From Fragilariopsis cylindrus CCMP1102 (lineage: Eukaryota > Bacillariophyta > Bacillariophyceae > Bacillariales > Bacillariaceae): a stretch of 64,000 nucleotides of DNA. The stretch lies in NCBI GenBank assembly GCA_900095095.1, contig FMBT01000295.1, forward strand, positions 620,001-684,000, written 5' to 3'. The first letter of the stretch is position 1; every line of letters starts with the position of its first letter. This document shows, one piece after another, positions 6,913-59,659 of the stretch. A program made the translations under genes and the position numbers. Under the pieces are notes generated by a model that saw only the letters and a list, made by a program, of their open reading frames with translations, did not search any database and was not told the origin of the DNA.

Positions 6913-9900
6913 ATGATGGTACCCGACATTAAGAAGAATGTCATTAGTAACACCGTAGTCAACGTTGATTACACCCGAATCGAATCGGAGTCATCTATCA
7001 GTATTGGTTTGGGCGACGATGACAACGGCAACGGCAACGGCAACGATGATGATGACGATGACGATGATGATGAATACGAAGTTGATATGATTTCTATTAC
7101 CGACAGTCGTCATAATAGTAATATTAATGTTAATCATCCATTTTTTGATTCATTTGTTAGTGTTGGAGTTAGTTTGATGTTGGATGATGATGATGACGAC
7201 GACGATGATGATGATCTCGATGATCCTAACGATGATGGTCTCGATAATCACAACGATGACGATGATCACAGTAGTAAAAGCACTCCAAGCATGAAATCGA
7301 TCGGCGATATCAGCAGCAATATTAACATTGACGAAAACGATAATGACAATGACAACAATGACAATGATAGTACTACAACTCCTGGTAGAAGTTTCAAGGA
7401 ACGTATTGTCCGTTCTGTATTTTTTGGTTCATTGGTATTAATGGTAATTCTCCTTGTTGTGATTGTCGCTACTACTGCAACTTCTACTACTACAACAACA
7501 ACTACTAATGGGCGCAGCAGCAGTATTATTACTATTAATGTGACAGTAGCAATCATGATTCTCATTTTGATTGGTGGTATTGGAATTACTTTCCTCAGTT
7601 ATGAGAAGCTTCTCAAAAGTAGAGAACAGATGTTAGTAAAATCCAATCGACGTTCGGAGGCAATCGTGGATAGTTTATTCCCATCCATTGTTCGTGATCG
7701 TATCCTGGAGGAAGGAGGTTTAGTCAATAATACTAATACTAATACTAAGCGCAACGTCAAAAACGTCAACGTCAGCGTCAACAACTGCGGTAGTAACGAT
7801 GACGATCCTGCAAACAGCAACAACAGTGAGAATCATCTACCATCATCGTCGTTACCGCCAACCCCGCCACCGCCGCGATCACCCTCACCACCACTATCAT
7901 CAGTAGTATCATCGTCACAACACATATTATCTTCTCCATTATTCAAGATGAAGAAGAATTTCTCAAACTCAAACAAGAGGGATAGTATTAGTACTGTAAG
8001 TAGCCACCAGAGTACTATTCCTAGGAATCCACCACCAGTATCTTCCTCCTCTACTACTTCGTCGTCAAAACCAATTGCGGATTACTTTCCAAGTGCCAGT
8101 ATCCTCTTTGCCGACATTGTGGGATTTACGAGCTGGGCTAGTATTCGTGATCCGGCACAAGTATTTATCTTATTAGAAACCGTCTATGGTCGCTTTGATG
8201 ATATTGCCAAGAAGAAGGGTGTCTTTAAAGTGGAAACCATTGGTGATTGTTACGTAGCCGCTACTGGCTTACCCACACCCCGTACCGATCATGCGATTGT
8301 GATGGCCAGCTTTGCACGACGGTGTTTAGAGAATATGTTAGATTTATTGGAAAGTAGAGAATTAGAGAATGAATTAGGAATGGGTACAAATGATTTAGGA
8401 ATGAGATTTGGTATCCATTCCGGATCCGTCATTGGTGGTGTCTTACGTGGTGCTAAATCACGGTATCAATTATTTGGTGATACGATCAATACTGCCAGTC
8501 GGATCGAATCCTCTTCGATGAAAAATAAAATACATTTATCGGAACAAACTGCTGAATTATTAATTGCGGGAGGAAAGATGAGTTGGGTGGAGGAACGAGA
8601 AGAAAAAATACATGCGAAGGTATGTACTATTGGTATAAATAAAATAATAACCTATCCTAAAATCAGGTTGGGAAGTGATGGTGGGGCCCGCGAGGAATGT
8701 CCGTCCACGCCCACTTTTTCATTTTGTATCATCAAACGTTTACTTCTTCTTCTTTTTCCTCTACTGTTTCTTTTTCACTCTCATCCACTTCCCATTTTGC
8801 TGTCCTTCCTATTCTTACTTCTTTTTTGTTACTATCGTAACGTGTAACAACATCAGGGAAAAGGCGAACTCCAAACGTATTGGTTGACTACCGAAGGACC
8901 AAATAATTTGAGTGCAAAAGAACAGTTGGCTCTTCCTGCATTACTTAAAATGATGAAGAAGGCAAATATCGACCCGACATTTTGTGCTACGAAAAGAAAG
9001 ACTGTTAGTCCAGAAGAAAAGAAAGAACGATTAGTCGATTATCATACACATATGTTAACAAAGGTGTTGAAAAAATTGTTAATGATGCGTCGTCGCAACA
9101 ACACCAACACGGTCTCCACCACCACCACCACCACCACCACTATTGTTGCCGTTACCGGTACTAGCAACGAAATGAATGTACGTGACTTTTCCACCAATTC
9201 TATTTCAAATGAAGTGTTGGACGATATTAATTTCCCAACGACGACGACGTCCATCATCGAAGACAACACGACGGTTCGAGATGTCAAATCATCAGTTGAT
9301 ACTGTCGTCTTGGCTCAACTCCGTGAGCTAGTATCCAGGACTGCTGGACTGTACCAAGAGAAAGATCGCCCATTTCATTCATTTGAACATGCAAGTCACG
9401 CGGTCCTATCCGTTATCAAGTTATTGGCTGCAATTGAGAGAAAACTAAACGAATCTTCCCATTCTCGTAGAGGATCTCTGAACGATTCTTCTCATTCTCG
9501 TAGAGGATCTCTGAACGATTCTTCTCATTCTCGTAGAGGATCTGGACAACATCAAGGTAGTAGCTCGGGTGTCGTTGTTGGATTCGACTCTCAAGTGGTG
9601 AAGAAGACGAAATTAATGATCACCCACCCGTTAACTCAATTCGTTTTAATCTACGCGACTCTTGTATGTGATGTGGGACGAGGGTGTGATGTCACCCAAG
9701 CTAACAAAAGTAACAGCAAGCAAGATTCTATCGAGCGTGCGTGGTCTCTCTTGATGGAACCATCATTTCGTGATCTTCGGGAGTTCATCTGTGGGAAGGA
9801 ACAGGAACAAATGGTCTTCTTCCGACGTCTCTTGGTAAAGAGCATTATGGCAACGGATGTCAACGATGGTCGAGATGTAGTGGCGCCTCTACTACTGCGT

Positions 9901-10326
9901 CGTAGTTCTACGGAAGGTTCTCTCACTGGAGAAGATCAGAAGGCTAGTCAAAAAGCGATGGGTATCATCGAAAAATTAGTCCAAGCGTCCGATGGATCCC
10001 ATGCATTGCAACACTTTTCTGTCTTCACCAAATGGAACAAGTTGCTCTTCAAGGAAATGTATCTCGCGTACGAGTCTGGCAGGGCCACCACTGCCGACAA
10101 GGACCCATCGGAAATCTGGTACGAGCGTGAGCTTAAATTTTTCGACAGTCGCATCGTTTTAGCCAAACAGCTGCAAAATTGCCGAGTCTTTAACAAGGTA
10201 GCCGAAATCTACGTCAACGCTGCACTTAGCAATAGACGTGAATGGGAAAAGACAGGAAGATCAATCGTAAAAGATTATCTTTCTACATACGAAGGCAAGT
10301 CAGCCGTTTCCGATGCCACTTTGTAG
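6913..10326 (+). CDS. Membrane class III nucleotide cyclase fused to a degenerate phosphodiesterase
   Basis: Exons 6913-8619 and 8857-10326 (237-bp GT-AG intron, phase 0) give 1058 aa. The splice rebuilds the usual cyclase end HAK-GKGELQTYWL. Residues 1-166 are acidic low complexity with two poly-Asp tracts. Helices at about 167-187 and 207-230 flank a Thr/Ser-rich loop. The cyclase domain (about 393-579) keeps both metal Asp (D401 in FADIVGFT, D445 in VETIGD), N526 and R530. Base selection is ambiguous: E441 is the guanylyl-type residue, Q519 is neither the guanylyl Cys nor the adenylyl Asp. The PDE-like domain (about 716-1045) keeps FHSFEHASH (H743, H747) and D948, but the HDxxH signature reads CDVGR (840-844), so two metal His are absent. 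Cyclase-PDE fusions are known in diatoms and other algae. I infer an active cyclase with a weak, dead or regulatory PDE. Confidence 0.9.
9448..9546 (+). repeat. Three tandem 33-bp units encoding SSHSRRGSLND inside the PDE-like domain
   Basis: Near-identical 33-bp units encode an 11-residue repeat at about 767-799 of the cyclase-PDE protein. Each unit contains Arg-Arg-Gly-Ser (Ser 776, 787, 798), which fits the R-R-x-S consensus of PKA/PKG-type kinases. The insertion lies between the conserved HxxxH helix and the second metal motif. The copies differ at very few bases, so the expansion is recent. Confidence 0.85.
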
Positions 10327-16015: not shown

Positions 16016-17032
16016 TTATACTAGCTCCACTGTTGCACCAACGGCTTCTAATTGTAATTTAAGTTCTTCTGCTTTTTCCTTTTTTAGTTCCTTTTGTATA
16101 ACTTTAGGGGCTCCTTCTACCATTTCCTTTGCTTCTTTTAGACCTAAACCAGCTATGTTCCTCACCTCCTTAATGACCTTAATTTTTGATTTTGCATCAA
16201 ATCCAAGAAGTTTTAGATCAAAAATTGTTTTTTCTTCCACTGGTTCGTCCGCAGCGGCATCACCACCAGCGCCTGCTTTTGTACTTCCTCCACCACCTCT
16301 TCCGGACATACGCTGTTCGGTTTCCTTCCAACTTATTCCCATTTGCTCATTAACAACTGAAGTTAATAGATGAACCTCAATCATGTCCAAAAATAATACT
16401 TTACCAAAAATTGCTTGAACCTTATCTTGAGAGTCTTGTGAGAGTGGTGCTGGAGGAGGTAAGTCGTATGTCACGTCCGTTGCGGATGGCTCTTCGTTAG
16501 AATCATCATCCTCGATGCTGGCATTATCACCCCCATCGTCGTTCGATGAGGTAGTGTCAGTAGTTGTTACGTCTTTTTCTTCTTCTTCTTTTTTCGGTTC
16601 TTCCTTATTGTCGGCAGCTGTAGTTGTTGTCACGTCTTTTTCTTCTTCTTCTTTTTTCGGTTCCTCCTTATTGTCGTCGGCAGCAAACCAAGACAATGGA
16701 GATGAATGAAATTGAGCACGAGATGTTAATGTCATCGAAGAATTTATGGTAGTTGCGTGTGGGCATCGTCGTTGTTGTTGTTGTCTATGATGATCCGAAA
16801 AATAGGAGTTTGATAAAGTCGATAACAGACGAGTTCTACCAGCAGCACCGATACTGCCAGTAGAGGAGGATATCAACCTGGACGATGTTGTCATGTCTCT
16901 TCGATTATATCTTCCTACTAATAAAGTATTATTATTCTTTTGTGGATGTACTATTATTTGTTTCCTATCCGCCTGTATCACGGAAGAGGATAGCAGTCGT
17001 AAGCGTCGATACGACGACGCAGGAATATTCAT
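16016..17032 (-). CDS. Mitochondrial ribosomal protein bL12m, copy A
   Basis: 338 aa, single exon. The last about 72 residues are a textbook L7/L12 C-terminal domain ([13 protein letters not shown]...KIKVIKEVR...[12 protein letters not shown]...), the part of the ribosomal stalk that recruits translation GTPases. Residues about 200-235 ([28 protein letters not shown], split here) match the N-terminal dimerisation helices. A basic Ser/Arg-rich start without acidic residues fits a mitochondrial presequence; diatom plastids usually encode their own L12, so mitochondrion is the likely site. It is much longer than normal bL12 (about 120-190 aa) because of an acidic spacer that includes a 21-22 residue tandem duplication ([18 protein letters not shown], nt about 16561-16683). 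Head to head with copy B. Confidence 0.88.
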
Positions 17033-17582
17033 ACCGTATGGAATTTTATTTTATTTTGTTGCGCCACAACAGCTACTTTGAACTTGTAGAGGAGTAAAAT
17101 AAACTCTGTTGTTTTTTGCTGCTATTGAGATTGTTTATCGTTTGTCGTTTGTTCCTAATCAAAAATATTATAATGTGTAAGTTGGTTGGTATTCCTCGCA
17201 ACAGTTCTAGAGCTCTAGATTTTGATTTTGATTTTGCCATCGTCGTAATAAGCTTCAAATCTCTGCACCGTCCAGATTTTTTTCGATGCGCGAATTCGAG
17301 GAAAGACTGAAGAGTTCCGTTTTTAATATATATTTATTACAATTTAACTAATATAATATAAGGAATCTGGAATTTCTATTTTATAAATGTGGGATAAATA
17401 ATCTGCAATTTTCTGACAGCTCATCCGTAAAAATCTCTACTTACAGGTACTTCTATTTATTTCACATCAGTGAGTTAGTAGCCGAATTGAAGATCGATAC
17501 GAAAACAATTAGTCGTTGTAGCATCAACAACAATCAATCAATCAAATCAGCAGATAAATACTAATACAAACTTTTGGAAATC
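17033..17582. promoter_or_regulatory. Shared 550-bp divergent promoter region of two bL12m genes
   Basis: Lies between the start codons of two paralogous genes transcribed away from each other. The leader of copy B holds CAATCAATCAATCAAAT repeats (about 17530-17550). A bidirectional promoter is inferred from layout only. Confidence 0.4.
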
Positions 17583-18476
17583 ATGTCAAAATCCTCTCGT
17601 CTGATACAGCGATGGGCGACGAAAACATCACCGTCGATTCCCAGTTCTAATAGCAGATCGGCTTTGTTGTCGACGAGCGCATCATCATCATCATCATCAT
17701 ATACAAGCAATAATACTCGTCCCTCATTATCAAACAGCAACTTCCAATTACTATTGCGGCGGCAGCAGCAGCGAATACTGCCATGTATGACAGGGGCAGC
17801 AGGAGGAGTAGGATCTAATACGAGAGGTACACGATCCTACCATTCTTCGGCATCGTTGTTTCATTTGGTCCATAAGGATGCTGATGCAGCGAAACCAACC
17901 GAAGAAGAACTTGCTGAAACAGACGATACGGTCCCAGTTTGGCAAAATCCACTTCATCATAACAATCCTGATATGAAAAAAATGTTTGCGGAAGATTTTG
18001 AAGAGGGTGAAGAAATGCCAATAATTCCTATGCCACCACTGGAATCTGATCCTGAGAAGGTCGTGGCTTCACCACACATTCATGAGTTAGCGAACGAGAT
18101 CGTACATTTGAATTTGTTAGAATTAAAGGAACTGACCGATAAAATTGCGGTCCATTTTGAATTTGATGATGAAATGATGGCAGCAAATTATGGTGGAGGT
18201 GGCGGAGGTGGTGCAGCTGGTGGTGATGGAGCCGGTGCGGAAGTTGAGGCTGTAGAAGAAAAAACAATCTTCGATTTGAAATTAATTGGTTTTGATGCTA
18301 AAGCTAAAATTAAGGTAATTAAAGAGGTTAGATCTATAGGCGGCCTAGGATTAAAGGAAGCTAAGGAGCTGGTAGAAGGAGCACCTAAGGTTATTCAAAA
18401 GGATTTAAAACAAGACAAGGCAGAAGAATTGAAAGCAAAATTAGAAGCGGTAGGTGCGCAAGTAGAAATAGTATAG
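17583..18476 (+). CDS. Mitochondrial ribosomal protein bL12m, copy B
   Basis: 297 aa, single exon. I place the start at the ATG at 17583; an in-frame TTG nine bases earlier is not needed. Residues 1-90 are Ser/Arg/Gln-rich and fit a mitochondrial presequence. Residues about 165-200 ([20 protein letters not shown]) form the dimerisation region typical of bL12, followed by a Gly/Ala hinge with seven consecutive Gly. The C-terminal domain begins [20 protein letters not shown] and ends VGAQVEIV. It is nearly identical in the C-terminal domain to copies A and C but differs from both in presequence and spacer, and its dimerisation region is the most canonical of the three. Best candidate for the constitutive stalk protein. 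Confidence 0.9.
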
Positions 18477-41801: not shown

Positions 41802-42449
41802 CTATACTATTTCTATTTCAGCTCCTAAGGCTTCCAGTTTTTCTTTCAATTCATCGGCCTTTTCTTTTTTTATATCCTTTTGAATTATTTTCGGTGCCGA
41901 TTCTACTAAGGTCTTTGCCTCCTTTAATCCTAAACCAGCAATTGCACGAACTTCCTTAATCACCTTAATTTTAGATTTTGCATCAAAACCAAGAAGTTTT
42001 AAGTCAAAAATTGTTTTTTCTTCCACGACCTCGGCTTCAACTACAGCAGCATCACCATCTCCTCCTCCTCCACCACCACCAGCAGTACCGAATTGTCCTG
42101 GAAAAATTGTTCGTCCCAAAACTTGTAGAACTACTGCACCTAATACATTCACATCCTCTTCAGGAAGTTTCACAACACGATCATACAATCCTTGTAATTT
42201 TGGAGAGGACAAATCGACATTAGTTTCAGAAGATTTTTTAGTAACGGCAGCAGCAGCAGCAGCAGTATCGCTGGAAAAATAACGGTTCGTCGTTGCTATT
42301 GTTGGTATCGTAGTAGGTGAGTGACGACGTATTATCGCTGTTGTTGCTACAGTATTTATTCTCCCTTTGAAAGCTCCTCCTCCGACGCTGCTGCTGCCGC
42401 CCGAACGGAATGCTGCTCTACAAAAATAAGAATAGGAAGCCGTACTCAT
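41802..42449 (-). CDS. Mitochondrial ribosomal protein bL12m, copy C
   Basis: 215 aa, single exon, closest of the three copies to normal bL12 length. An Arg/Ser/Thr/Ala-rich presequence runs to about residue 60 with RYFSSD, a plausible processing site. Residues about 80-115 ([20 protein letters not shown]) replace the usual dimerisation helices and differ from copies A and B. A Gly-rich hinge precedes the C-terminal domain (about 143-215, [20 protein letters not shown] to ALGAEIEIV). The C-terminal domain is nearly the same as in A and B, so the copies diverged mainly in presequence, dimerisation region and spacer. Located about 24 kb from the other two. Confidence 0.9.
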
Positions 42450-42761
42450 GATAGCAGTGCTGGTAATTGATTGGATGGATGGTTAGCACTTGTAGTAGTC
42501 CTGTGGCAATACAATTGAATCAATCAGAAGGACTGCTAACCAGGGGTAATAATGGATGTTCGAATGTGCTGTCTGCGTTGACTTGAGACTTGACACAATG
42601 TTCAAAGTGTGAAATGAATTTAATAAGTTTGATCCGGTCAGAGGACGGACTAAACATTATTTTTTGGCGCGCATTTTTTTTGTATTGAAAATTTAAGGAA
42701 CAACATTATTTCTTAAACTTCATCATCATTCACACTAATGAAGAATGAAGAATGAAGAGTC
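42450..42761. promoter_or_regulatory. Divergent region upstream of bL12m copy C and the 471-aa protein gene
   Basis: 312 bp between two start codons. It contains a GGCGCGC element near 42666 followed by a T run, and GAAGAATGAA repeats before the plus-strand start. Promoter function inferred from position. Confidence 0.4.
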
Positions 42762-50007: not shown

Positions 50008-50152
50008 CTGTCAATAAAAATAATTATTTTTCGTTTGGAATAAATTAAAACGCGCACCTTTGTTTACACATCTACTAAAACATCTAGTACTAAATCTACG
50101 TAGAACCTACGTAGAGCTTCAACCTATCAACCTCTAATTTGTAGTGTCGACG

Positions 50153-52984
50153 ATGGTTATCATGTCGAATACAATCCAACCAGGAATGTATCTTGACAAC
50201 ATTGATAACAGGAGTGACAATCGTTCTATCGGATCCAGATCCAGCTTCAATCGTAACGAAATTCCGGCTAAAAATGATAAAGATATGACTTTACGAAAAA
50301 TCACGACAAAATCAACCAGTAACAACAACAAGACAACCACCGACGTAGAAGGTTGGACCACGACAAGCCCAGGAAAGAAGAAACCAAAGAATTCGAACAG
50401 CACCGTAGCATCAACTGAGTCAATCATCACGACAATTGACGGAAACTTCGATAGTATAGAGGCAGGAACCAGCAACAGAATCTATGTTACGTCTCCAGGA
50501 AGAAAGAATAAGTGCAACATACCTGACGACAGTAGGCAGCAAACAGAATTAGAATTCATTCCAACAATCATGGCAGTTAAAAGAAAAGAAAAAGTTAAAG
50601 ACAAGGAACAAGACAATGGAGAAGATAATGATACGAGCAAAACAAACGATCAAGACAATGGCAATACTATGGAGGATAACAGAGAAGGAAAAGACGACAA
50701 CAAAGAAGACAAGAATAAAACAAATAGTAAGAACGACAGTAGCAGTAACGATAGCAACAACAGAGGACAAGGAGGAAGAGGCGAAAGAGGAGGTGGACGA
50801 AAAGGAAGAGGAGGAAGAGGAGGTATAGAAAGAAATCTAATCCCTAAAACTGAATGGGAGACATACAACTTTTCAATTAGTTTCAATCCCAAGACAATGA
50901 ACAATAAAGACCCTGATACGGAATTCCAAGCACTACTTTCAGAGATGATGAAAAAGTCTCCAGGAATCACATTCCATGCAACGAACGAAGATATGTTTCC
51001 GAAACCAAAATCGTTCTCAAACATACAAGGATACCCACAGACAGAAGCTGCGTTCAAGGACTTCTTTGAAGTTTATGAAAACAAAGGTATGACAATTTAC
51101 AAAATATTTATCCAAGCAACAATGCACTACAATGAATTAGACCTTCGAAACAGTTTACTCAACTACTTGAGAAGTAATAATCTTTGGATGTCGAGTGATT
51201 TAATCTCAGAGAATGTAGACGAAATGATTGGATATATTAATTATGGACATGATAAAATGGTATGGAGACCTGAGTGTGAAAAGAAAATCAACAATGGGAT
51301 CAATGCCCTGATTCAAAGCGGATCCATTCCACAAGCTTTGCGATTAAAAATTGATGGATTAAAGAAAGATATCAAGATACGTGTCGCAGCAGGAACATTC
51401 CGGGGAGGACCAAGAAATGATCCAGTCATGTGCGAAGGTTTACTCTTACGAACAACGAAAGCACAAGCAAGAGCAAGTATGGAATTATTAGGTTTATTAG
51501 ACGACAATGTATTAGGAGAGTTCTACAGTATCATTCCGAAAGGAACAGACAAAGAAATAGGACCACAACTATATGGAGATTTATTACGGATGAACAACGA
51601 TATGCTAAACACTTTACGTGCTATTACTGTTGTTAACTGGCCAGAAGAATTATTCCTAGAGCTTTACAACCCCGCATTAGACGTCCCAGGAACAGTCGCA
51701 CTCAGAGTCGATACACTACTGATGAATGCATGGAAATGTGTAGCAATTGAACGTACAACTGAGACAGAAACAAGAGGTAAATACTTACTACTTTTCCAAG
51801 AAGAAGATATGGAGAAAGCGAAAGCATTAATCAGTAATCTGATTGACGACTTTGGAAGAGAGAGTAACAGTAACTGTGCAAAGATTGCGTTAGAAAAGTT
51901 TAATCAATTTCCAGAGTTTGACAGCATTCAAAGAGTGTCACAGTCAGTACAGGCAAAAGCTTCCAAATTGAAAGAAATGCTACAAAACGCGGCAGCACAG
52001 AGGACATCTAAGACGCCCAAACAAATACAGCAACCGCGATTTCAATTCCATGTAGCAAAACAATTGCAAAAGCAACTGCATCTCCCAACCCAAAAATCGT
52101 ATAGTAATATAGCACAAAGCAGCGCACAAAAGAAACATTTAACAATAGTACAACCTGCACCCAGTACCGCACAACCAACGACACCACAACAGCAGCCTCA
52201 ACAAGCAACACATGCAGAACAAACAAGAATGACAGAAGCAGACAATACAGCACAACAAGATCAAACTAGTAACGAAAATGGATTAAGAGTTCGTACATCA
52301 ATGAATTTAATGACACAAGACACAAGAACTATAGCAACGAACCACTCAGGATTATCAGACCAACAAACAATGACAACAATGATGACTCAGATAACACAAC
52401 AGTTTCAAGAAATGGAGAGAGATAGAATAACAAGAGAGGACAAACAAGAAGCAAAACGACAAGAAAGAGAATCTAAAATAGAGGAGAGACGAGTCGAGGC
52501 ACAAAGAGATATGTACTCTTTTATGAAATCAATGATGATGATGACTCAGAATCAGAACAGTGAGAATAAACAAAGAAAAGAAGCAAATCCAAATCCGATA
52601 CCAGACGAACTAACAACAGGTGAAACAGAACAAACAAGCGCTCTTACATCCAGCATAACAACGACAAAGTCATTGACTACACCTACCGGAAAAAGGGCGT
52701 CAGCTCTACTATCAAACACTAATGAAGAGACGAATATGACAGACATTGGAACAGAGGCAGAAGATACGGAGACGATAGAAACGATGTCAACAAAGAGAAA
52801 TAAAAGCGTAAGCGTATCAGCAAAGGACACAGAAGATGGACAAGCAGACGACATGATGGAGGATGGAGAAGAGAACACGGAGAAGAGAGGAGAAAATTCA
52901 AGTTCATTTACCGATGGATTCAATAATCAACAATTCCAACCAAAGGCGATAATAGCTCCTGGGACAGGAGCTACTCAACAATAA
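50153..52984 (+). CDS. LINE ORF1 protein
   Basis: 943 aa from the ATG at 50153 (a GTG nine bases upstream is also in frame). Residues 1-220 are Lys/Asn/Asp/Ser-rich and basic-acidic, ending in an RGG-type stretch (GRGERGGGRKGRGGRGG, about 205-222) likely to bind RNA. An ordered part of about 400 residues follows (TEWETYNFSISFNPKTMN to about residue 610). Then comes a Gln/Thr-rich region with long helices (QEMERDRITREDKQEAKRQE), which may be a coiled coil for multimerisation. There is no zinc knuckle and no RRM that I can recognise, so this ORF1 is unlike the common LINE-1 type. The usual role is packaging the element RNA. ORF2 frame opens over the last about 30 bases of this ORF. Confidence 0.75.
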   Translation: MVIMSNTIQPGMYLDNIDNRSDNRSIGSRSSFNRNEIPAKNDKDMTLRKITTKSTSNNNKTTTDVEGWTTTSPGKKKPKNSNSTVASTESIITTIDGNFDSIEAGTSNRIYVTSPGRKNKCNIPDDSRQQTELEFIPTIMAVKRKEKVKDKEQDNGEDNDTSKTNDQDNGNTMEDNREGKDDNKEDKNKTNSKNDSSSNDSNNRGQGGRGERGGGRKGRGGRGGIERNLIPKTEWETYNFSISFNPKTMNNKDPDTEFQALLSEMMKKSPGITFHATNEDMFPKPKSFSNIQGYPQTEAAFKDFFEVYENKGMTIYKIFIQATMHYNELDLRNSLLNYLRSNNLWMSSDLISENVDEMIGYINYGHDKMVWRPECEKKINNGINALIQSGSIPQALRLKIDGLKKDIKIRVAAGTFRGGPRNDPVMCEGLLLRTTKAQARASMELLGLLDDNVLGEFYSIIPKGTDKEIGPQLYGDLLRMNNDMLNTLRAITVVNWPEELFLELYNPALDVPGTVALRVDTLLMNAWKCVAIERTTETETRGKYLLLFQEEDMEKAKALISNLIDDFGRESNSNCAKIALEKFNQFPEFDSIQRVSQSVQAKASKLKEMLQNAAAQRTSKTPKQIQQPRFQFHVAKQLQKQLHLPTQKSYSNIAQSSAQKKHLTIVQPAPSTAQPTTPQQQPQQATHAEQTRMTEADNTAQQDQTSNENGLRVRTSMNLMTQDTRTIATNHSGLSDQQTMTTMMTQITQQFQEMERDRITREDKQEAKRQERESKIEERRVEAQRDMYSFMKSMMMMTQNQNSENKQRKEANPNPIPDELTTGETEQTSALTSSITTTKSLTTPTGKRASALLSNTNEETNMTDIGTEAEDTETIETMSTKRNKSVSVSAKDTEDGQADDMMEDGEENTEKRGENSSSFTDGFNNQQFQPKAIIAPGTGATQQ

Positions 52985-53093
52985 AGGCACTTCAAGTGCC
53001 AATCTAAAGCATACTCGTGAAGGAAAGACTGCAGACAATCCAACAGAACGATCAGGCGCACAACTATTAGAACATTCATACGATATAACAACA

Positions 53094-56000
53094 ATGATAC
53101 CAACACAAACAAATATATTTAGACAAACATACGAAAGGAATAACAACGACGAAGAAGATAAGGATAATGAAATGCCGACACTACAAGACAGAGATAGAGA
53201 GGATAGTGATAGCGATGATGAAGAGAGCGAGGACGATATAGTGTACGAGAATTACGATGAACAAGAGGTTGCATACGGAGACAACCAAGACACATTGGAA
53301 AATAGACTATTTAAATTAAAAGAAGAAATAACAAAGATTAGTAATCTACAGACAAACAATTTAACAGATAGTCTAACAAAAACAACAATAGCATTCGTAC
53401 CATCAAGAATGATCAATACTGAGAGACAAAAACTAAAAGAAGAAAGAAAAGAGAACAAAAGAGAACTGCTGCAACTGCAAAAAGAAATAATAAAAGAAAC
53501 AAAAGAAGTATTGAAATGGGAACGTATACAAGCAAAAACCCGAAATCAGGAGATGGAAGATGACGAGGAGGATGAAGACGAATCAGTGTATGAGCCAATA
53601 ACAATGCCTAAGTTAATTAAACGAAACGGAGATGATGACGACGACCGATCTGTCGACAGTGGGTCAGTGCAAACAGAAGATAATACCACAAAGAAACCGG
53701 TTACATTACGACTAAGAGGAGGAGCACCCCCAGAGATAATAGAAATAGTTGAAGAGAGATTCATATTAGAAGCATTGGATGAAGAAGAAGCAGAACCAAT
53801 GGGAGGCACAATGGAGGAACCAAAATTACCAGGAATGCTACGGATATCTGGATGTAATCCAAATGGTATCAAAGCAGGCCAATTGAAAAGTCATCTCCAA
53901 AACGCGATGGACTTAAACGTCGATATTCAATGCTACTCGGAAGTGAACACCGATTTCCTGCAAACACAACAAAGACAGAAATTCTACGAGAATACTAAAT
54001 CAATGGACAGACAGGCACGAGCCGTATGGGGGACTAGTCAAGTGGTAGTCGAAAACAAATCCGCATTTAAACCAGGCGGTACAGCAATCGTATCAATGGG
54101 AAAAACAGCTGGAAGAGTGAAGAAATCAGGCACGGATTCGATGGGAAGATGGACGTATCAAGTACTGGATGGAAAAGGAGGAAAAGACATACTCATTGTA
54201 AGTGTATATCAATGCTGCAAGCAACCAACAAACCCAAAAGGAGTTACAGCATATCATCAACAGGAAATAATGCTAAGTGAAACAAACAGAGTCGACAGAG
54301 ATCCAAGAAGAAACTTCTATAAAGACTTGAAAAAGTTCTTGAATGAATTCCTTACAGACGAGAACAATAACATAACACCCATTATACTGGGAGATTGGAA
54401 TGAAGAATGTAAAGGAACATCAACATCACAAAAACTATGCGACTACTTTGGATTTGTTAATATATTCAAACAAGTACATCCAAACCACAAACAATTTAAA
54501 ACATATATGAGAGGTTCAAGGACTATCGACTTCGCACTAGCCCCCCCAGAGCTAGCGAACCGAGTGACAAACTTTGTGTACGAGCCATTCATGTACAGGC
54601 TAAAAGGAGATCACCGTGCATATTACTTTGATATAGGAGAAGAAGTTCTATTTGGAAATAAACAAGAACCAGTATATGACCAGGCAGGAAGAACGTTCGC
54701 AAGCAAAGATCCAAAAGCAGTAACTACTTATCTCGCAGCAGCACACTCGCATCTTATGGCCAACGCAGTAATGACAAGAATAAGGAACCTACTGGCAAGT
54801 GATGACCCAGACCACGAGGAGGCAGAAAAACTAGACTCACTCATGACGCAAGCATGCGAACACGCTTCCAACCAATGTAAAAGAAGAAGAAAAGATTACT
54901 GGAACATCGAAATACATGAAACAAAAAGAAACCTATCAGTATGGTGTCAATACAAAAGTAGACGAGTACGGAAACTATCATCACGTGCACTCATAGCACG
55001 GACATCGGCACTAGGACTACAGATGAGAGAAGGAATGCCAATGGAAGAAATACTAGGACAAATAGAAATACTACGCACAAGAGTAAAAGAAATACACAAG
55101 GAATCTGAAAAGAAGAGAGATGAATCACTTACGGAGAGGGCAAATATGGCAGAAGACGCAGACGACAAGAAGAAAGCTAAGGCGATTCGTCAAATGAAAG
55201 AGACAGAACAGAAAACAAGAGCTTTCCAAAAATTGAAGTTCAAGAGAGGACTTATACACAATGGAGGAGGTATATCGAGATTACAAGTACCAATCACATG
55301 GCCAACAGCTGAAGAATACAATGACGAGACAGACTACAACCTGGAAGACCCGAAAGCAACAGACCAGAAAGATGCAAGCAAATGGAGAGAAGTAAATTGC
55401 CCAAAAGAGATTGAATTCCTGCTGAGATTGCGCAACCAACGTCATTTTGGACAGGCTGAAAGTGACAGAACGCCCTTTACAACAGAAACTATGAAACACA
55501 AATTCAATTGGAGTGCATCAACGAATGAGGCCGAACTGGTCCTAAAAGGAGAATATAACGATGATGAATTATCAGATATAACAAGACTATTTCTAGATAA
55601 TATGACACGAGTGACCGAGACAGAAGACAAACCGAAATTCTTAACAATGAAAGAATTTACAGGTAAATTCAAAGTATGGAGAGAAACAACGTCGACATCT
55701 CCAAGTGGAAGGCATCTGGGACATTACAAAGCTCTGGTGGCAACAATAGATCGATCCTTAAAAGAGGAAGAAAGAAAAGAATTTGTAACATTTCAAGAAG
55801 AGATATCCAAATGCTATATAGGTTTGATCAATTATGCGATCAAACATAGATATTCTCTTCAACGATGGAAGACGATAGTCAATATGATGATATATAAAGA
55901 ACATGGTAATGTCAAGATACACCGGTTGCGAGTCATTCATCTGTATGAAGCAGACTTAAGTCTCCTCTGGGGCGTGAAATGGAGAGAAGGTATGCACACA

Positions 56001-56399
56001 GCGTTAAAGACAAAATCACTACACCAAGGCCAGTATGGAGGGTTACCCGGACGAGATTGCACATCACTGACATACTTAGAAGAATTACGATTTGATTATT
56101 CAAAACTGACAAGATATCCAGTTGCAAATTTTGATAACGACGCAGCAGCATGCTATGATAGAATCCTATGTGCAATAGCAAGTTTAGCAGGAAGGAAATA
56201 CGGCATTCACAAAGACGTTATATTCATACATGCACAAACATTAGAAGAAGCAGAATTCAAACTGAAATCATCACTGAAAGTATCTGATACTCATATAGAC
56301 ACTGTGTTAAATTTCCCATACACGGAACAGGCCAAGGATCAAGCAATTCACCAACAATATGGTGTTTATATCAAGTGTACTATTCCAATGCCACAATGA
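53094..56399 (+). CDS. LINE ORF2, N-terminal part: AP endonuclease and first half of reverse transcriptase
   Basis: 1101 aa from the first ATG; the frame itself is open from about 52953, overlapping the ORF1 end in another frame. A charged start of about 235 residues ends in LRLRGGAPP. The endonuclease spans about 250-520 with GCNPNG (nt 53850), SEVNTD, GDWNEE (nt about 54389), SRTIDF (nt about 54517) and GDHRAY (nt about 54607), the standard APE order of Asn, Glu, Asp-Asn, and Asp-His residues. The reverse transcriptase begins with TSPSGRHLGHYKAL (nt about 55695) and includes the first catalytic region (VANFDNDAAACYDR). Then the frame is lost near 56330, ahead of the FVDD box. Not functional as it stands unless frames are switched. 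Confidence 0.8.
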   Translation: MIPTQTNIFRQTYERNNNDEEDKDNEMPTLQDRDREDSDSDDEESEDDIVYENYDEQEVAYGDNQDTLENRLFKLKEEITKISNLQTNNLTDSLTKTTIAFVPSRMINTERQKLKEERKENKRELLQLQKEIIKETKEVLKWERIQAKTRNQEMEDDEEDEDESVYEPITMPKLIKRNGDDDDDRSVDSGSVQTEDNTTKKPVTLRLRGGAPPEIIEIVEERFILEALDEEEAEPMGGTMEEPKLPGMLRISGCNPNGIKAGQLKSHLQNAMDLNVDIQCYSEVNTDFLQTQQRQKFYENTKSMDRQARAVWGTSQVVVENKSAFKPGGTAIVSMGKTAGRVKKSGTDSMGRWTYQVLDGKGGKDILIVSVYQCCKQPTNPKGVTAYHQQEIMLSETNRVDRDPRRNFYKDLKKFLNEFLTDENNNITPIILGDWNEECKGTSTSQKLCDYFGFVNIFKQVHPNHKQFKTYMRGSRTIDFALAPPELANRVTNFVYEPFMYRLKGDHRAYYFDIGEEVLFGNKQEPVYDQAGRTFASKDPKAVTTYLAAAHSHLMANAVMTRIRNLLASDDPDHEEAEKLDSLMTQACEHASNQCKRRRKDYWNIEIHETKRNLSVWCQYKSRRVRKLSSRALIARTSALGLQMREGMPMEEILGQIEILRTRVKEIHKESEKKRDESLTERANMAEDADDKKKAKAIRQMKETEQKTRAFQKLKFKRGLIHNGGGISRLQVPITWPTAEEYNDETDYNLEDPKATDQKDASKWREVNCPKEIEFLLRLRNQRHFGQAESDRTPFTTETMKHKFNWSASTNEAELVLKGEYNDDELSDITRLFLDNMTRVTETEDKPKFLTMKEFTGKFKVWRETTSTSPSGRHLGHYKALVATIDRSLKEEERKEFVTFQEEISKCYIGLINYAIKHRYSLQRWKTIVNMMIYKEHGNVKIHRLRVIHLYEADLSLLWGVKWREGMHTALKTKSLHQGQYGGLPGRDCTSLTYLEELRFDYSKLTRYPVANFDNDAAACYDRILCAIASLAGRKYGIHKDVIFIHAQTLEEAEFKLKSSLKVSDTHIDTVLNFPYTEQAKDQAIHQQYGVYIKCTIPMPQ

Positions 56400-57250
56400 A
56401 AGAGCGTCCGGAATGTTATTTCAGTCACCAGAAGGTGACATGATAGTCAGATTCAATATGGTAGGGTTTGTCGATGACTCCACATGTATCACCGGAGGCA
56501 ATCCCGATGATACACTACAGAATTGCTGAAGAAAATGCAGGATGATGCACAGCTATGGCACGATCTGTTGTGGTGCTCAGGAGGCAAATTGGAACTATCA
56601 AAATGCGGATATCATGTGATACATTACGACTTCGAAGACAGTGGAATTCCAAGAATGAAACATAACCCTGGGGAATCAATAACACTACAGAATGAAAAGG
56701 GCGAACCAATCTCCATCAAATCTAAAAATATATACCAAACAAGAGTGAATCTAGGACATGCAAAAGCTCCAAGCGATTCTTGTAACACAGAATTCGAACG
56801 TACGTTAAAGAAAGCAGTAAAGATCGGGGAAGCTATAACACAGTGCGGAGGCACGAGAGCTGAAAGCAAAATGCTGTATAGAGCTGTTTGGAAACCAGCA
56901 GTCGAATACATATTGCCGCAATCATTTCTATCGAAAAAGCAATTACAAAAGATAGAGAAAGCAAGTTTGCCTAAAATATATGCGAAATGCGGGTACAATA
57001 GGAACACGTCAAGAGCAGTACTAGCTGGACCTATAGAACTTGGAGGAGGAGGATTTACACCTCTGTACGTGACGGCCGGAACAGGCTACGTAACTCACTT
57101 TCTGAAAAACTGGAGGACACCTACAGAAGATATTGGAAAACAATTACGATCGTATATGCATGGACATCATATCAAGCAGGTGTTACATACCCCTTATTAG
57201 AACATCCAGAACGTATATTAGATTACGTAAACGGTAAAGTAATACCAGGA
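56400..57250 (+). pseudogene. LINE ORF2, frame-shifted reverse transcriptase middle
   Basis: The catalytic GFVDDSTCITGG box (FVDD, nt about 56465-56480) lies in a short frame that ends near 56525. A second open piece (56523-57200) carries the thumb-like region (WHDLLWCSGGKLELSKCGYH, then a long helical part with ILPQSFLSKKQLQKIEKASL). Another shift lies near 57180. Each piece reads cleanly in its own frame, so the breaks are recent indels rather than general decay. Confidence 0.75.
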
Positions 57251-59659
57251 ATGAGAGAATACTTGGACACAATTGATGGCAAAATAAAATTGAATAATAC
57301 TTATATTAGATCTAAATTGAGAACTAACGACAAAAGTATCATGGAAAGAGTAGCCGAAATGGAATTCACCACTATTCAAAGAGAACGGATCAATTGCGTC
57401 AGAATGTATTTGGGTGTGATGTATTTAAGTGAAATTTGTAATGAGGACGGAAAGTCGTTACAGAAAGGTATCGAAGACAACAAACACAACAAAACAACAT
57501 ACACAGTATCATTGACTAGACCAAAACAACAGAAACCAAACTCCTACAGCTGGAAATTTTGGAAGAAGGCAATAAGATCATTCACAACAGACGATAAGAA
57601 ATTAGAATTGGAACTAGGATCTTGGACCAACCAACACAGCAAATCCGGCAAGTGGGAATCATACCAGTCTAATATAGACAATAATATATATCACCATTGT
57701 AGCAACAAAGAAGATAACCATCAGTATTGGGAAGTTTATGAACGTCAAGGGTATCAACTCACTTTAATCGACGAAATGGAACTGGATGAATTTAAGATAC
57801 AAAATGGAGGAACACCAATACAAATAAAATCTTTAGCAAATGGAATGAAATATGGCGAGATGACAGCAGTAATAGTTAAAGATAAGAGAACACAGAATGC
57901 TTATGGACCCGACGTATCATGGGACAGATTTATACAAGCACAACCAGAATGGGTGCGAGTACTCCTGGAGGATGTTCATTTCTTTTCAGAAGATGGGTAT
58001 TCCAACCTGTGGGAAATAGTAGCATGCATGGAGAAACACAAGTACTTGTTAGCTGTATCTGATGGTTCTGTAAAATTCCATGACATGAGCTTTGGTTGGA
58101 TCTTAGCTACACCTACTGGCGAAAGATTAGCAGCAGCTGCAGGACCTTGTAATGGGAGAGGAAATTCACTTCGGGCAGAAGGAGCAGGAATGTTGTCAGT
58201 AACAATGTTTATAGCATCAATCATAAAATACCTTGAGGTAGAACCAATGAAGATAGTATTCATATCTGATAATCTAGAACTGATCAAACGACTGAAAGCA
58301 CATAAGCATTACAACGATCCATACCCAAATGAGACCCTGAAATCGGAGTTCGACGTGACAGAGCAAATATACAGAACAACAGAGACATATGGAATAGAGG
58401 CATCCTACAAGTGGGTTAAAGGTCATCAAGATAAGAACACACCTTACATGGACCTGAACTTAGAAGCACAACTCAACGTCGATGCAGACAAATTTGCAGG
58501 AGACTTTCAGATGGAAAAAGGGAAATTCAGACCAATGGTATTCCTCCTACCAAGCTGTGATGCCATGCTATCGATAAGAGGAATCAGCATCACAAGCAAC
58601 TATAGGAAACAATTAATAAGAGCATATGTTGAGCCGGAATACATTCAATACCTACAGTACAAATTCCAGTGGTCAAATGAAGTCATTGAGATAGTTTCTT
58701 GGAAATGCCTCTCACTTGCTATACAAAGAATTAACAGAGACGTTCTAATCACAAAAATATGCAATGATCTGTTACCAACAGCTGACACGCTGTGCAGAAT
58801 GAAATACCAACACCACGATACATATGTTTTATGTAACAACCACGAAACAAGAGACCATATGATAAGATGTACTGCAAAGTCAAGAATTAAATGGAGAAAC
58901 CAATATATAAATGCAATTAGAAAGAAGCTAAATACGATGGAGACAGAATACGCAATAACAGAAGCTCTATGCTCAGCTATTGCAGCATGGCTGGAGTTTG
59001 GAGAGGTCGATATAAGCAAGTTTCCGATACAATTTGCAAATGCTATCTTGTCACAAGAGAGAATCGGATGGAGACATTTCTTCGCTGGTAAAATATCGCA
59101 GGAATGGTTACAACTACAGGAGAACAGTACAAACAAGACAATAGGAAAGAAAAGAGACTGTTACGTTTGGGGAGCGTCGGTGGCTGAAGTGACTCTGACC
59201 TATTTCATTAAACTATGGGAATTAAGGAATGAGGAAGTCCATGGTAAATCTGTAGAACAACAAGAAAGAACAAGAAAAACCAAACTCAGTACAGATGTAA
59301 GAAAACTAAATGCACTAAAGGACAAAGCAAGACCGGTAGATATGGGCTTATTCCACAATGATATAGAAGAATTCATTGATAGTTCAACTGCACAAACAAT
59401 TGCGACATTTATCAGTAGCCACAAGAGAGCGATTGCAAATAGTGTGAAGAAATACAAAGCAGCCTCACAAGCAGGAGCAACGTCTGTAGTCCAATGGATC
59501 AGGGGATGGAGCAACAACGACGATGTGATAGAAAGGATGAACACTAGACAAAGGAAAGATATACTGGAAACAGATGGTAGGAAGAAGGAGAGACGACGGC
59601 GTAAACAAAACAGTGGAAGACAGAGATCAATAGTTGGTTTCTTGTCATTAGTGTCGTAA
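57251..59659 (+). CDS. LINE ORF2, C-terminal part: RNase H and Cys-His motif
   Basis: Up to 802 aa in one frame. It begins inside the connector region, so the first Met is arbitrary. The RNase H domain is at about nt 58045-58500 with its four acidic residues visible: LLAVSDGSVKF, SLRAEGAGML, VFISDNLELI and LNVDADKFAG. A Cys-His motif common behind the RNase H of such elements follows (VLCNNHETRDHMIRC, nt about 58828-58872). About 260 more residues with helices and a very basic end (RRKEKRRRKQNSGRQR-like) close the protein. All motifs are intact. Confidence 0.8.
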   Translation: MREYLDTIDGKIKLNNTYIRSKLRTNDKSIMERVAEMEFTTIQRERINCVRMYLGVMYLSEICNEDGKSLQKGIEDNKHNKTTYTVSLTRPKQQKPNSYSWKFWKKAIRSFTTDDKKLELELGSWTNQHSKSGKWESYQSNIDNNIYHHCSNKEDNHQYWEVYERQGYQLTLIDEMELDEFKIQNGGTPIQIKSLANGMKYGEMTAVIVKDKRTQNAYGPDVSWDRFIQAQPEWVRVLLEDVHFFSEDGYSNLWEIVACMEKHKYLLAVSDGSVKFHDMSFGWILATPTGERLAAAAGPCNGRGNSLRAEGAGMLSVTMFIASIIKYLEVEPMKIVFISDNLELIKRLKAHKHYNDPYPNETLKSEFDVTEQIYRTTETYGIEASYKWVKGHQDKNTPYMDLNLEAQLNVDADKFAGDFQMEKGKFRPMVFLLPSCDAMLSIRGISITSNYRKQLIRAYVEPEYIQYLQYKFQWSNEVIEIVSWKCLSLAIQRINRDVLITKICNDLLPTADTLCRMKYQHHDTYVLCNNHETRDHMIRCTAKSRIKWRNQYINAIRKKLNTMETEYAITEALCSAIAAWLEFGEVDISKFPIQFANAILSQERIGWRHFFAGKISQEWLQLQENSTNKTIGKKRDCYVWGASVAEVTLTYFIKLWELRNEEVHGKSVEQQERTRKTKLSTDVRKLNALKDKARPVDMGLFHNDIEEFIDSSTAQTIATFISSHKRAIANSVKKYKAASQAGATSVVQWIRGWSNNDDVIERMNTRQRKDILETDGRKKERRRRKQNSGRQRSIVGFLSLVS

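Follow-up and report, generated by a model that had tools for sequence, protein, structure and literature searches.

The gene described here lies on the + strand of the window, by which we mean the whole 64 kb stretch of DNA that was analysed, and consists of two exons (6913–8619 and 8857–10326) encoding a product of 1058 residues. Its features are as follows.

6913–8619, + strand: exon 1, with an acidic low-complexity N-terminus, two transmembrane segments, a Ser/Pro-rich linker and a class III cyclase domain
7417–7473, + strand: predicted transmembrane segment 1 (residues 169–187; hydropathy scan)
7540–7596, + strand: predicted transmembrane segment 2 (residues 210–228; hydropathy scan)
8089–8577, + strand: class III nucleotide cyclase domain, with D401, E441, D445, Q519, N526, R530 and K539 kept
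8620–8856, + strand: intron predicted from sequence (237 nt, phase 0, GTATGT...CATCAG)
8857–10326, + strand: exon 2, comprising a linker and a degenerate phosphodiesterase (PDE) half (489 codons plus stop)

Pfam matches, hydropathy and comparison with six fusions found elsewhere in the genome all show the layout of the cyclase/phosphodiesterase (GC/PDE) fusions of diatoms, a family in which a cyclase is followed by a PDE domain in one chain behind N-terminal transmembrane segments, and by its sequence the protein is a predicted membrane-anchored member of this family. Because the predicted transmembrane segments are just 22 residues apart, a large ectodomain is absent; the corresponding loop has 13 residues in the paralogue C462 and, judged by eye, spans hundreds of codons in L038 and L039. 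When exon 2 was searched as DNA against the assembly (67.9 Mb, 818 contigs), it gave a single match. Elsewhere in the window, a ribosomal L7/L12 C-terminal domain was seen in three separate genes (16016–17050, −; 17565–18476, +; 41802–42482, −), and adjacent long frames of 948, 1147, 229 and 885 aa at 50138–59659 (+) are by eye non-LTR retroelement-like, the 1147-aa frame being without a Pfam match at E 0.001.

An earlier, sequence-only reading of this DNA had held that the cyclase half keeps its catalytic residues, and all seven active-site residues examined are indeed retained. Guanylate_cyc (PF00211) matches residues 393–555 (E 3.7e-41, Pfam), and this match is accompanied by the two metal Asp (D401, D445), N526 and R530 of a class III cyclase. 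D401, E441, D445, Q519, N526 and R530 are identical across the gene and the six fusions, while the K539 position is Lys or Arg throughout. The half retains 70 of the 81 columns invariant among the fusions (each fusion keeps 81 of the 82–90 invariant in the other five), and none of the 11 changed columns is among the seven active-site residues examined. On these residues, the cyclase half is probably active. The textbook purine pairs are Lys/Asp in adenylyl and Glu/Cys in guanylyl cyclases, and the E441/Q519 pair common to this gene and all six fusions matches neither of them. Moeys et al. (PMC4726125) class the Seminavis protein as a guanylyl cyclase because of the residues with which it binds guanine, which makes cGMP the likely product; the nucleotide made by the present protein would thus probably be cGMP.

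The PDE half retains part of a class I active site and has lost the rest.

9376–9390, + strand: HxxxH motif, kept (H743, and H747, a metal ligand)
9667–9681, + strand: CDVGR (C840, R844), replacing HDVDH
9682–9720, + strand: shortened segment, with about 13 residues fewer than the paralogues, ending in K857, which replaces an invariant Glu
9664–9720, + strand: in-frame GT...AG stretch of 57 nt (V839–K857; GTATGT...CTAAC...AAG), a conceivable very short intron
9991–9993, + strand: D948, the fourth metal ligand, kept

The exact residue numbers are H743, H747, CDVGR 840–844, MATD 900–903 and D948, and those of the sequence-only reading, which named all but MATD, agree with them exactly. The half is a class I PDE by homology, since PDEase_I (PF00233) is matched in exon 2 at 25.8 bits, barely above the curated cut-off of 24.8, and partially (profile positions 93–188 of 238). 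With class I PDEs (PF00233; PDE4, Rh-PDE 5vyd) it shares the HxxxH, the HD Asp, the late Asp and a recognisable domain. Unlike them, it carries CDVGR in place of HDxxH, so that C840 and R844 break the motif and the set of metal ligands found in active enzymes. The damage extends beyond what had been claimed earlier: about 13 residues after CDVGR are gone, including an Asn that every one of the genome's nine other PDE genes has, the remainder of that segment is not recognisable against the paralogues, and the Glu of the His–Glu pair, also present in all nine, is Lys857. Of ten catalytic positions taken by PDE4D2 numbering, four are lost, compared with none of ten in each of the six fusions, and the intact PDE catalytic site of the GC/PDE family is thereby missing; in that numbering the losses are H200 to C840, H204 to R844, N209 deleted and E230 to K857, with H743, H747, D841, T902, D903 and D948 kept.

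H743 holds the general-acid position and position 844 is a phosphate contact, both catalytic and neither a metal ligand. A review gives the PDE4B2B zinc ligands as His238, His274, Asp275 and Asp392 (PMC13095499), whose counterparts here are H747, C840, D841 and D948, so that one metal ligand of the four has been lost, not several, and three are kept. The earlier statement that metal-binding His residues are lost thus stands for position 840 and fails in its plural.

Searches with the PDE half alone gave little: phmmer with exon 2 against the PDB gave no match to E 1, and in NCBIfam exon 2 had no match and exon 1 none over the cut-off. A profile of five paralogues, with the present gene left out, found class I PDEs among the best 60 of 146 PDB sequences. 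A single-sequence AlphaFold2 model of 9277–10323 had a mean pLDDT of 41.6, too low for a fold search. At the position presumed to be that of the Gln that grips the purine in PDE4-type enzymes, this gene (E994) and all six GC/PDE fusions have Glu, as does Rh-PDE, and C628, C90:272k and C711 have Gln; the Glu may bear on substrate choice.

PDEase_I occurs at 16 places in the genome. Grouped by eye, with near-identical copies merged, these make ten genes including the present one, the others being C711/C760, C90:591k, C411, C660/C260, C459, C678/C641/C21/C743, C462, C628 and C90:272k/C597. The motif is HDVDH, HDVGH or HDVKH at each of the 15 other places, and HxxxH, the three HDVxH positions tested, the Asn, the Glu and the late Asp are kept by all nine other genes. 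The PDE half is 34–37% identical to those of the six GC/PDE paralogues, which are 47–81% identical among themselves, and the tree gave no firm placement of the gene among the six fusions. No orthologue was found in viral_contigs or genome_contigs, neither of which is a diatom collection. C462 (L043, C462:41000–49000) has two close transmembrane segments and no large ectodomain, and keeps HDVDH; with its similar N-terminal layout and intact motif, it is a natural control for this gene. Near-identical duplicate loci (C711/C760, C90:272k/C597, C21/C743, C660/C260) make it seem that the assembly holds partly separated haplotypes.

One-base frame breaks were seen in GC/PDE paralogues, two in C459 (near 3840 and 5420 of L041, C459:185000–192500) and one each in C628 (L044, near the cyclase motif) and C660 (L047). 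They are assembly errors or young pseudogenes, and so one or the other does occur in this assembly; the present gene is free of such breaks. On neither strand of the window does HDV(D/E/G)H occur as an unbroken string of codons (CAYGAYGTNGRNCAY, a pattern that leaves out HDVKH and intron-split motifs). A compensated frameshift behind CDVGR was considered and rejected. The +1 frame after DV (DEGV...LTK) slightly resembles the paralogues' DHxGV...LVK, with its score reached in 5% of shuffles for that frame alone and by some frame in 15% of 2000 shuffles, and this frame too is without the second His. The in-frame segment did not resemble the paralogues (p 0.58). Moreover, a pair of indels would not explain at once why both His codons are gone, why Glu has become Lys and why 13 residues are missing.

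Because C840, R844, K857, the missing Asn and the loss of about 13 residues all fall in the active site, the PDE half can very probably no longer hydrolyse cyclic nucleotides. With this half dead and the cyclase active, a once bifunctional enzyme would now be a one-way source, probably of cGMP. The earlier suggestion that the protein may make cyclic nucleotide without destroying it is well supported, both by what the nine other PDE genes show in comparison and by the unequal rates at which the two halves have evolved. We lean towards a reading in which an active cyclase is joined to a catalytically dead PDE half that has been retained as a non-catalytic module, where it would hold or regulate the cyclase dimer.

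The rates bear on the main alternative, namely that the dead PDE half is simply decaying under relaxed constraint, with selection on the cyclase half alone and a C-terminus without function, which we regard as possible, if on balance unlikely. In the PDE half the end branch of the gene is 1.60, compared with 0.10–0.66 for the six fusions (270 gap-free columns), and the speed is not confined to the lesion, as the branch is still 1.48 (fusions 0.11–0.67; 238 columns) with residues 826–857 left out, a whole-half acceleration of the kind expected from decay. Relative mean distances behave likewise, at 1.40 (bootstrap 1.30–1.52) against 0.80–1.04 for the whole half and 1.32 (1.22–1.44) against 0.81–1.05 without that stretch. 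For the cyclase half the branch is 0.48, against 0.09–0.52 (155 columns), and the mean distance 1.15 (1.01–1.31), against 0.87–1.11; this half is therefore within the branch-length range of the family and slightly the most distant of the seven by mean distance. Together with the 70 of 81 invariant columns kept, that position suggests that the cyclase half may itself be slightly relaxed.

Counts of invariant columns point both ways. The loss of 39 of the 89 PDE-half columns otherwise invariant in the six fusions is what decay would predict, as is the repeat expansion in a loop of this half (described below). Against decay, 50 of the 89 have survived and the alignment with the paralogues runs to the end of the half. 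When each fusion was left out in turn it kept 89 of 90–108 columns, compared with 50–62 of the same sets for the present gene. Changes cluster solely in residues 826–857, where 17 of 22 invariant columns differ against 22 of 67 elsewhere (Fisher p 4e-4, an optimistic value because the borders were picked after the alignment had been seen); the 22 of 67 lost outside the active site are as general relaxation would give. The idea that damage is confined to catalytic residues was rejected, since 4 of 10 lost resembles 39 of 89 overall and the catalytic list alone therefore gives no enrichment. Finally, of the 3401 single changes in exon 2 that alter an amino acid, 194 (5.7%) would give a stop, and the frame has nevertheless stayed open over 489 codons on a long branch, which suggests selection on the frame and argues against simple decay, yet shows no function.

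Between H747 and C840 the PDE half carries an inserted loop with repeated candidate phosphorylation sites.

9448–9546, + strand: three near-identical 33-nt units, N(E/D)SSHSRRGS(L/G) (residues 767–799), each coding one RRxS (RRGS) site
9898–9909, + strand: a fourth RRxS site (RRSS, residues 917–920)

RRxS is a PKA/PKG-type (cAMP/cGMP-dependent-kinase) site and a weak motif. The cyclase-plus-PDE part of the gene has four RRx[S/T], whereas none of the ten paralogue rows, two of which cover the PDE part only, has more than one. In the same genome, L053 combines, in the manner of PKG, three cNMP-binding domains with a protein kinase domain. The three RRGS sites would permit feedback by phosphorylation, and it is conceivable, though quite unlikely, that the dead PDE half, with this array between its metal motifs, relays PKG/PKA feedback to the attached cyclase and makes a self-limiting cGMP source. 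The near identity of the 33-nt repeats means that they are possibly recent and neutral. If the feedback reading were true, the degrading half of a fusion enzyme would have been turned into a kinase-regulated control module, beside bifunctional sisters.

That the pseudo-PDE is a sensor, binding cGMP or cAMP uncut and controlling the cyclase, an idea that the sequence-only reading had raised beside that of a regulatory lid, we consider improbable. In its favour, H747, D841 and D948 can still be recognised, as can the purine-facing side of the pocket in the C-terminal part (QASD, FFD), and there is an analogy in bacterial GGDEF-EAL proteins with degenerate EAL domains, in which a synthesis domain is fused to a degradation domain that has lost catalysis and in which some dead EAL domains bind or sense. 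These bacterial proteins differ in having unrelated folds and another nucleotide. Against a sensor, the pocket has lost about 13 residues on its metal and phosphate side, where two His have also become Cys and Arg and a Glu has become Lys, and residue 993, Gly in all six fusions, is Arg. A module with a structural or phospho-regulated role seems likelier than a sensor, given that the stretch flanking the metal and phosphate site has been deleted or can no longer be recognised.

It is very improbable that Cys840 serves as a zinc ligand in a rearranged metal site (H747, C840, D841, D948), whether still active or holding a structural zinc. Cysteine is in general a good zinc ligand, and three of the four ligands listed in the review are kept (PMC13095499). 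However, R844, K857 and the deletion take out other catalytic positions, and no other PDE gene among the nine has a Cys at this place. We give least credence of all to a gene-model artefact in which 9664–9720 is an in-frame intron and CDVGR is absent from the protein, since its GT...AG form, in-frame length and GTATGT donor (as in intron 1) are set against introns of about 98 nt or longer among the predicted exon joins, and such an intron, even if real, would remove the HD motif entirely and leave the PDE no less dead.

Its degenerate PDE half sets the protein apart within a known family. To the knowledge of Moeys et al. in 2016, cyclase/PDE fusions occur only in diatoms (PMC4726125), and from the presence of such fusions the genome is taken to be that of a diatom. 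The known diatom bifunctional fusion is the Seminavis robusta GC/PDE, Sro991_g228730, and GC/PDE fusions in this diatom rise with sex pheromone (PMC4726125, PMC8027222); PMC5485032 names a homologue from Pseudo-nitzschia multistriata and joins the other two in linking diatom GC/PDE fusions to sex-pheromone responses. Like the present gene, these fusions place a class III cyclase and a class I PDE behind two predicted N-terminal transmembrane segments; unlike them, it has a destroyed PDE active site. Among the literature matches listed, no GC/PDE fusion with an inactivated PDE half was apparent from title and abstract start. Diatom GC/PDE fusions are thus already known, and what is new here is a member with a degenerate PDE half.

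Pfam annotates the damaged domain as a PDE even so, which makes it unsafe to infer the number of cGMP sinks from domain annotation of GC/PDE genes. The finding bears on the question of why synthesis and breakdown share one chain in GC/PDE fusions, and a member with a disabled PDE, in one genome with six sisters whose motif is intact (C459 with frame breaks), offers a ready comparison for a non-hydrolytic role of the PDE half.
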